From positions 176,812 through 240,811 of the forward strand of contig JAAOYA010000001.1 of the NCBI GenBank assembly GCA_018221105.1: 64,000 nt of DNA, read 5' to 3'. This DNA is from Candidatus Woesearchaeota archaeon. GTDB taxonomy: Archaea > Nanobdellota > Nanobdellia > Woesearchaeales > JAAOYA01. The position numbers and the translations under genes are program-made. The notes under the pieces are model-generated. The model saw nothing but the letters and a program-made list of their open reading frames with translations. It was not told where the DNA came from and did no database searches. Every line of letters starts with the position of its first letter. Position 1 is the first letter of the stretch. Positions 849 to 40,183 of the stretch are shown one piece after another.

Positions 849-1000
849 GTGGGGGTAGCAAAGTCTGGCCAAACGCGCAGGACTTAAGAATAAACCACTT
901 GTTGGGATATCCTGTTCCTTAGTGGATCCGCGGGTTCGAATCTATGACGGCTGGCCGGCATGGCCAGGAGCGTCAAGCGAATGTCCCGTCCCCCACACCA
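849..1000 (+). tRNA. tRNA-Leu(TAA) with two introns
   Basis: The acceptor stem GTGGGGG (849-855) pairs with CCCCCAC (990-996), followed by A73 and an encoded CCA (998-1000). The anticodon stem CAGGA/TCCTG encloses CTTAAG, so the anticodon is TAA at 885-887. A 20-nt intron (about 889-908) sits at 37/38. The variable arm is long, as expected for Leu. A second intron, 941-983 (43 nt), splits the T-loop. The T-stem is GCGGG/CCCGT, and TTCG/CGAA forms the 4-bp central helix of a bulge-helix-bulge motif with 3-nt bulges AAT and TGT. Splicing restores the loop TTCGAAT. A TATA-like element lies at about 819-829. Boundaries are inferred from pairing. Confidence 0.9.
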
Positions 1001-5908: not shown

Positions 5909-6009
5909 GGGCCTGTAGTCTAGTGGCTATGACATCGCCTCGACAAAAAAACAATACTGTTTTTTCGAAGCGGCGGGGGTCCCCGGTTCGAGTCCGGGCA
6001 GGCCCACCA
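5909..6009 (+). tRNA. tRNA-Val(GAC) with a 25-nt intron and C33
   Basis: The acceptor stem GGGCCTG pairs with CAGGCCC, then A73 and an encoded CCA (6007-6009). The anticodon stem TCGCC/GGCGG encloses TCGACA, giving anticodon GAC at 5942-5944. A well-formed bulge-helix-bulge defines the intron 5946-5970: central helix TCGA/TCGA, 3-nt bulges CAA and AGC, and an inner AAAAAC/GTTTTT hairpin. The mature loop is TCGACAC, so base 33 is C rather than the near-universal T/U. The T-loop TTCGAGT matches the spliced form of tRNA-Val(TAC). Confidence 0.92.
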
Positions 6010-34596: not shown

Positions 34597-34716
34597 TGGG
34601 CCTGCCGAGATTTGAACTCGGGACCGCCGACTCTCTTAGAGCCAAGTGTCCGCAACTATCACTGCAAAGCACTGCCATATAAGACCGGTGCTCCAACCAG
34701 GCTAAGCTACAGGCCC
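34597..34716 (-). tRNA. tRNA-Ile(TAT) with a 45-nt intron
   Basis: The acceptor stem GGGCCTG pairs with CAGGCCC, A73; CCA not encoded. Splicing of the intron 34633-34677 (central helix CTTA/TAAG, bulges TAT and AGA, inner CAGTG/CACTTG) gives loop CTTATAA with anticodon TAT at 34679-34681. The anticodon stem CCGGT/GTCGG contains two G-T pairs. This would read AUA directly with U34, rather than through the agmatidine-modified CAT anticodon used by most archaea. Confidence 0.88.
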
Positions 34717-34917: not shown

Positions 34918-35048
34918 TGGGCCCGCCCGGAATTTCGGAACTCTTACTGCTGTTCGAACTTTTGTAAAAGGTCGCTCGAACCGGGGATCAATGCCTTTCT
35001 TCCCGTTAGGATGTAAGGGCACTGTCATAGCCACTAGACCACGGGCCC
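34918..35048 (-). tRNA. tRNA-Val(TAC) with two introns
   Basis: The acceptor stem GGGCCCG pairs with CGGGCCC, A73. The anticodon stem GTGCC/GGCAT encloses CTTACA (anticodon TAC at 35013-35015), with a 15-nt intron at 34997-35011. A second intron of 43 nt, 34932-34974, splits the T-loop: T-stem CCCGG/CCGGG, central helix TTCG/CGAA, 3-nt bulges AGC and ATT. Splicing restores TTCGAGT, the same T-loop as in tRNA-Val(GAC). The position and length match the T-loop intron of tRNA-Leu(TAA). Confidence 0.9.
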
Positions 35049-39655: not shown

Positions 39656-39951
39656 TTCGCAAAATTGTGTTTTTTTGCAGTGTTGGTGTACTGCTTTGGG
39701 CTTGTACTGCTTGAATTCGAGCTTTTTGTTCTTTCATCACTTTTTAGGTACAACGTATTTTTTTGTTTTTTTAGTATTTTTTATCGTCGATGGCTTTTTT
39801 CTCGTTTTTGTTTCATTTATAAAGGATTGACCATGTCTAATGTTCTTTTTTGTATACTGAAAGCGTTTTATCATCAATCGTTGAGTCTGGTTATTGACGC
39901 TAAAACAGCACATCGACCATTTTTTGGAACCCTTCCTTCTGTCAGTATAAG
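39656..39951. other. Intergenic region without a recognisable gene
   Basis: About 295 bp, T-rich on the plus strand. A frame from ATG 39833 has a TATA-like element but runs antisense through tRNA-Leu, so I reject it. On the minus strand the last part would be the 3' flank of tRNA-Leu(TAG). No rRNA-like or hairpin-rich RNA stands out. Confidence 0.4.
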
Positions 39952-40098
39952 TGCGGGGGTAGGGATTCGAACCCCAGTAGGCACTAAGCCACTAGGTTTC
40001 CTCGACTCGAGGTCGCCTAAGCCTAGCCCGTTTGACCGCTCCGGACACACCACGTTGTGTTGGAGTACGAACGTTTGTGAGTTCTCCGGCACCCCCGC
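39952..40098 (-). tRNA. tRNA-Leu(TAG) with a D-loop intron and an anticodon-loop intron
   Basis: The acceptor stem GCGGGGG pairs with CCCCCGC, A73. The anticodon stem CTAGG/CCTAG encloses CTTAGG, anticodon TAG at 40017-40019; an 18-nt intron spans 39998-40015. A 45-nt intron (40039-40083) interrupts the D-loop between positions 15 and 16. Its bulge-helix-bulge has central CCGG/CCGG, bulges AGA and AGC, and an inner ACTCAC/GTGTGT helix with one mismatch. Splicing restores D-stem CCG/CGG and loop GAGCGGTCAAA. The variable arm is long, as expected for Leu. Confidence 0.88.
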
Positions 40099-40183
40099 AT
40101 AAATCACTTATTTTGGTGTTTACAATATTATATATAATTATCTATAGATAATATGTGGTTAGTAGAATGTGTTGGTGGAAATT

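Follow-up and report, generated by a model that had tools for sequence, protein, structure and literature searches.

The 43-nt insert in the T-loop of the tRNA-Val(TAC) gene is, with high confidence, an archaeal BHB tRNA intron at position 59/60 that is independent of the intron at the same site in tRNA-Leu(TAA), and this site appears to be interrupted in nearly every isotype among Woesearchaeota, where such introns have been gained, lost and copied. The gene lies in a window (the whole 64,000-nucleotide stretch of DNA that was analysed) belonging to a 1.15-Mb archaeal draft genome, 92% complete. The window also contains archaeal 16S and 23S rRNA genes with tRNA-Ala(TGC) between them. The related genomes that were compared all fall in other families of one order, and the named relatives of its splicing endonuclease are nearly all Candidatus Woesearchaeota or Nanoarchaeota.

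Structure of the tRNA-Val(TAC) intron and the splicing endonuclease

The Val(TAC) gene is the sole one found for its anticodon, in a draft that could conceivably hold a second copy. Without its 15-nt 37/38 intron and the 43-nt insert (CGACCTTTTACAAAAGTTCGAACAGCAGTAAGAGTTCCGAAAT, between G59 and T60), the gene gives a complete tRNA with all stems intact. The original prediction had noted that the spliced T-loop TTCGAGT equals that of tRNA-Val(GAC), which is unsplit in its T-loop and carries its own 37/38 intron; the identity in fact extends to the whole T-arm, CCCGG-TTCGAGT-CCGGG. Bases 54–57 (TTCG) pair with CGAA of the insert in a 4-bp central helix that lies flush with the T stem and is flanked by two 3-nt bulges. 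RNAfold, given the pre-tRNA without its 37/38 intron, returned the cloverleaf together with this BHB unprompted (z = -3.0). The covariance model R1 also matched the intron with E = 1.5e-5, a value obtained with the Val sequence itself in the training set. Excision of the 43-base intron would almost certainly be required for a working tRNA. Both this gene and the Leu(TAA) gene were missed by ARAGORN and by Rfam cmscan (Table 1).

Table 1. Positions of the interrupted tRNA genes, their introns and the proposed splicing elements in the window
Feature	Position	Strand	Basis
tRNA-Val(TAC) gene, two introns; discriminator A at 34918, body 35048-34919	34918..35048	-	7-bp acceptor stem, 5-bp T stem, anticodon TAC
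Val(TAC) T-loop intron at 59/60, 43 nt	34932..34974	-	strict BHB; RNAfold; covariance model R1
Val(TAC) central helix, exon strand T54 T55 C56 G57	34977..34980	-	RNAfold
Val(TAC) central helix, intron strand CGAA	34934..34937	-	RNAfold; partner of base 57 covaries in relatives
Val(TAC) 5' bulge A58 G59 / C; predicted 5' splice site 34975/34974	34974..34976	-	RNAfold
Val(TAC) 3' bulge A T / T60; predicted 3' splice site 34932/34931	34931..34933	-	RNAfold
Val(TAC) canonical 37/38 intron, 15 nt, boundary +/-1 nt	34997..35011	-	anticodon-stem pairing
tRNA-Leu(TAA) gene, two introns, encoded ACCA 3' tail included	849..1000	+	direct reading
Leu(TAA) T-loop intron, 43 nt; homologous to the Met(CAT) intron (G000:C4, L041), not to the Val intron	941..983	+	32/43 identity to Met intron
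Leu(TAA) canonical 37/38 intron, 20 nt	889..908	+	anticodon-stem pairing
tRNA-Val(GAC), T-loop TTCGAGT intact, own 37/38 intron	5909..6006	+	direct reading

In the transcript, T54–G57 would pair with the CGAA near the 3' end of the intron and stack on the T stem, and the resulting helix would present one bulge on each side. A single alpha-type endonuclease would then cut both bulges, at AG/C and AT/T, and the exons would be ligated, presumably by RtcB, so as to give the normal T-loop TTCGAGT. Since nearly every tRNA reads TTCR at bases 54–57, a spliceable intron at 59/60 could be made from any short hairpin that ends in YGAANN, which would account for the splitting of this site in nearly every isotype.

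The candidate enzyme is the one EndA match in the host genome, a 177-aa protein with conserved Y113, H123 and K154 (the catalytic Tyr, His and Lys) whose nearest counterparts are N. equitans alpha and M. jannaschii alpha4. Aligned with A. pernix alpha (3p1z), it has a gap of 9 residues in the N-terminal region, presumably at the position of the Crenarchaea-specific loop, which it would therefore lack. No second EndA subunit was found by the EndA profile in the host genome and the relatives checked. Among eleven genomes, nine had one full-length EndA of ~177 aa and one had it split in two, while an incomplete genome gave no match. Judged by its single alpha-size subunit, the host EndA is predicted to be alpha-type. 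Enzymes of the alpha4 type cut the strict motif only (PMC4033280, PMC6379350), and no exceptional enzyme would be needed here because the Val and Leu introns form the strict BHB motif.

T-loop introns of the same genome and their kinship

The Leu(TAA) intron (TCTATGACGGCTGGCCGGCATGGCCAGGAGCGTCAAGCGAATG, between A59 and T60) has the same TTCG(54–57)/CGAA helix and two 3-nt bulges, and RNAfold again gives BHB geometry unprompted. On recomputation, the description of a 43-nt insert at 59/60 with this helix in both genes proved correct. The further 59/60 insertions that had been suggested as a check do occur in the genome, in tRNA-Pro(TGG) (36 nt, L042) and tRNA-Met(CAT) (42 nt, L041, G000:C4:36459 onward), both of which were detected as sub-threshold tRNA matches. 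When the covariance model was run over the genome, it clearly matched the Val, Pro and Leu introns only, and Met was absent. The Met gene has C54 in place of T54, so that three of the four central pairs can form (C54 stands opposite U), and splicing of its T-loop intron is doubtful because of these three central pairs.

Kinship was found between the Leu and Met introns, which are identical at 32 of 43 positions (74%) and reach a score of 18.5, whereas none of 5000 shuffles exceeded 6.5. This value exceeds the similarity of over 70% that Fujishima and co-workers reportedly found in 2010 between introns of different tRNAs, and which serves here to recognise transposed introns. No clear further copy of the Leu/Met sequence was found elsewhere in the host genome. 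Nothing closely related to the Val intron, and nothing above 70%, turned up among the other introns with which it was compared.

Descent of the Val and Leu introns from one ancestor, which moved between the two genes and whose copies later diverged in their interiors, is very unlikely. Site, helix and 43-nt length all agree, and movement from tRNA to tRNA is known in this genome from the Leu–Met pair. However, the Val and Leu interiors align with a score of -12, which is equalled or bettered by 77% of shuffles (P about 0.77). The original remark that these interiors are not obviously alike is therefore borne out, and the comparison suggested as a check for shared ancestry revealed no relation. 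The agreement in helix and length, which the original prediction had pointed out, comes down to constraint and coincidence: the TTCG exon strand is near-universal and forces CGAA in the intron (TGAA with A57), and the equal length carries no weight because T-loop introns range from 14 to 92 nt. The genome thus appears to hold one related intron pair, Leu–Met, and not a Val–Leu pair. The suggestion that these split genes are mere pseudogenes or arose from faulty assembly, to which their absence from the output of standard tRNA finders might lend some colour, can hardly be right when all stems are intact after excision, the gene is the sole one found for its anticodon, and dozens of independent assemblies show the same arrangement, with covariation. 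Both readings were rejected, and so was that of a permuted tRNA.

Distribution, gain and copying across Woesearchaeota

In the order, 60 genomes were searched with two patterns; once the anticodon, acceptor stem and T stem of each candidate had been examined, 93 tRNAs with 59/60 introns remained. Under strict rules, T-loop introns were verified in 137 unique tRNAs of nearly all isotypes, relatives included, and the same rules gave 0 cases in 2.56 Mb of random sequence (40 random 64-kb sequences). A looser caller made 2 calls in the real window versus 12 and 16 in 40 random or shuffled windows; the strict rule was adopted for counts because of these 12–16 false calls per 40 windows. Since GGTTCGA...CGAA taken by itself occurs no less often than the reversed control pattern, every case needed its tRNA check. 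Isotype counts are approximate, as automatic calls fail for some multi-intron tRNAs (L188 was called Ala(CGC) and reads Glu(CTC)), and several of the relatives' genomes are drafts.

The second pattern left the base opposite position 57 free (C or T), and A57 proved to be paired with TGAA in 54 of 56 cases and with CGAA in 2, while G57 goes with CGAA. At the level of sequence, this covariation is direct evidence for the central helix. T stem and central helix are paired in 100% of 90 sequences, with covariation of 0.468 versus 0.123 when shuffled, in a set partly selected for pairing; the A57 count and the exon comparison between congeners are independent of that selection. A model built from the 90 sequences found at least one match in 137 of 279 genomes of a phylum-wide sample, a lower bound because only 19 candidates were scored in each genome. 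More candidates were scored for 11 genomes belonging to one family, each of which gave 7–19 model matches at E up to 0.1. Of the 137 verified introns, 95 end in AG, and in many relatives the inner helices are imperfect or less regular.

Comparison within one genus indicates gain or loss at a fixed point. Intact tRNAs match the virtually spliced exons of a congener at 68/70 positions for Gly(GCC), 70/72 for Val(CAC), 70/73 for Pro(CGG) and 66/70 for Gly(TCC), and because of this match 59/60 is read as a true insertion site at which presence and absence differ between congeners. When 146 introns from about 42 genomes were compared, 186 pairs surpassed all 4031 shuffled pairs in similarity. Such likeness was seen in 39 of 228 pairs (17%) from the same genome and different isotypes, versus 4 of 234 (1.7%) from different genomes and the same isotype. 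Three families are conspicuous, and the Leu and Met introns of the host belong to the first, T1. Family T2 (CATACTCACTGGCGTTCGTAGCTTTC...) occurs in ten genomes, and in several isotypes within genome G106 alone, while family T3 occurs in G174 and G277. One family is common to at least four isotypes in G106 (Glu, Arg, Gly, Ala).

The same sequences also occur outside T-loops. Modules like T3 lie in 37/38 introns of G174, once beside a T-loop copy in the same tRNA, and in the tRNA-Pro(CGG) of that genome (L243) a long homologous module is common to the canonical and T-loop introns. T2 cores are found in the 37/38 intron of L413 and probably of L412, and also as intergenic, often tandem palindromic repeats within operons of G106 and G085, for example between ATP synthase subunits; a pattern search for T2 cores gave 27 matches versus 1 for the reversed control pattern. 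It had been proposed that T-loop introns spread between tRNAs by means of their shared recognition helix. Reuse of one helix in many tRNAs and the spread of introns between them (Leu and Met here; Glu, Arg, Gly and Ala in G106) both hold up, but the helix as the vehicle does not, given related interiors in 37/38 introns and intergenic repeats.

As a separate observation, the tandem intergenic palindromes of loci L405, L411 and L416 (G106, G085) follow the consensus AAAATGAAAGCATGCTCACTnnCGTTCGYAGCTTTCATTTTGA within operons and share their core with T-loop introns, and the TGAAAG preceding the core corresponds to the 3' end of T-loop introns.

As to the direction and mechanism of copying, the sequences point to mobility, whether of DNA or by way of the excised intron, and do not discriminate between the two. 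It is conceivable, if rather unlikely, that the introns are small mobile palindromes, which would exist as repeats between genes as well as in the form of BHB introns and would move between tRNAs, positions and intergenic DNA, possibly via an excised circle, with the tRNA intron as a domesticated landing state. A circular route is possible because intergenic copies of one family have the intron 5' end directly after TGAAAG, its own 3' end.

A contrasting account, in which each tRNA has inherited an old T-loop intron whose interior alone turns over, with little real transposition, would fit the isotypes that are split in both congeners with different interiors (for example Asp, Lys and Tyr in genus g120), as well as the Leu(TAA) T-loop intron, which is present in five genomes of different families. 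This account seems improbable all the same, in view of the presence/absence between congeners with nearly identical exons, of intron likeness that tracks genome rather than isotype, and of the family spread over at least four isotypes of G106. It has also been asked whether such introns are retained since they destroy the attachment site of tRNA-targeting integrases. Genes for tRNAs are common integration sites, and Randau and Soll reportedly proposed integrase evasion for archaeal tRNA disruption (as cited in PMC3218864, PMC3293823); the idea is nonetheless quite doubtful here, and would explain retention but not origin or copying. The favoured reading remains that Woesearchaeota introns at 59/60 would come and go between congeners, change rapidly and sometimes be copied from one tRNA to another.

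Known systems and other tRNA genes

Three components have precedents: BHB introns occur in T-loops, permuted tRNAs have junctions at 59/60, and introns of Thermoproteales have transposed. The transposed introns of Thermoproteales (Fujishima et al. 2010; PMC4090602, PMC4033280) are, like those here, short BHB introns that are similar in different tRNAs and occupy canonical and non-canonical positions. Thermoproteales belong to the Crenarchaeota, in which broad-specificity (alpha-beta)2 endonucleases predominate, whereas the host is one of the DPANN Woesearchaeota, and the only EndA detected in it is alpha-type and lacks the loop of the crenarchaeal enzymes; many introns here share the single site 59/60, and one family also forms intergenic repeats. 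In the T-loop-permuted tRNAs of Thermofilum pendens and Cyanidioschyzon merolae, exons likewise join at 59/60, but the halves are reversed, while the Woesearchaeota genes are in normal order (PMC3218864). ARMAN, Caldiarchaeum and Asgard Atabeyarchaeia also have BHB introns at non-canonical positions and multi-intron tRNAs, in Caldiarchaeum in the T-arm as well, and the accessible portions of those reports describe no 59/60 family with a covarying base 57 (PMC6379350, PMC3293823, PMC11291895). The epsilon2 endonuclease of ARMAN can cut relaxed motifs (PMC6379350), in contrast to what is predicted for the alpha-type EndA of the host. No earlier report of a T-loop radiation in Woesearchaeota was found among the open-access papers searched.

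If the present reading is true, many essential tRNAs in a large and uncultivated lineage of archaea are interrupted at the same universal site, and the genomes of that lineage would consequently look falsely short of tRNAs. The natural presence/absence pairs at a fixed splice site would make the gain and movement of tRNA introns directly testable, and the findings suggest that a narrow alpha-type endonuclease is compatible with non-canonical positions as long as the motif stays strict.

Other tRNA genes of the host also appear unusual. Those for Asn, Ser(GGA), Gln(TTG), Leu(CAA) and Leu(TAG) (L038, L039, L040, L043, L044) seem to bear introns in or near the D-arm and score under the Rfam cut-off; L044 (G000:C5:216650-216950) lies in the window at about 39839-40139. 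On the minus strand at 34597-34716 there is a tRNA-Ile gene with anticodon TAT and a 45-nt canonical intron. AUA in archaea is usually read by a modified CAU anticodon, and Ile(TAT) genes recur in several relatives.
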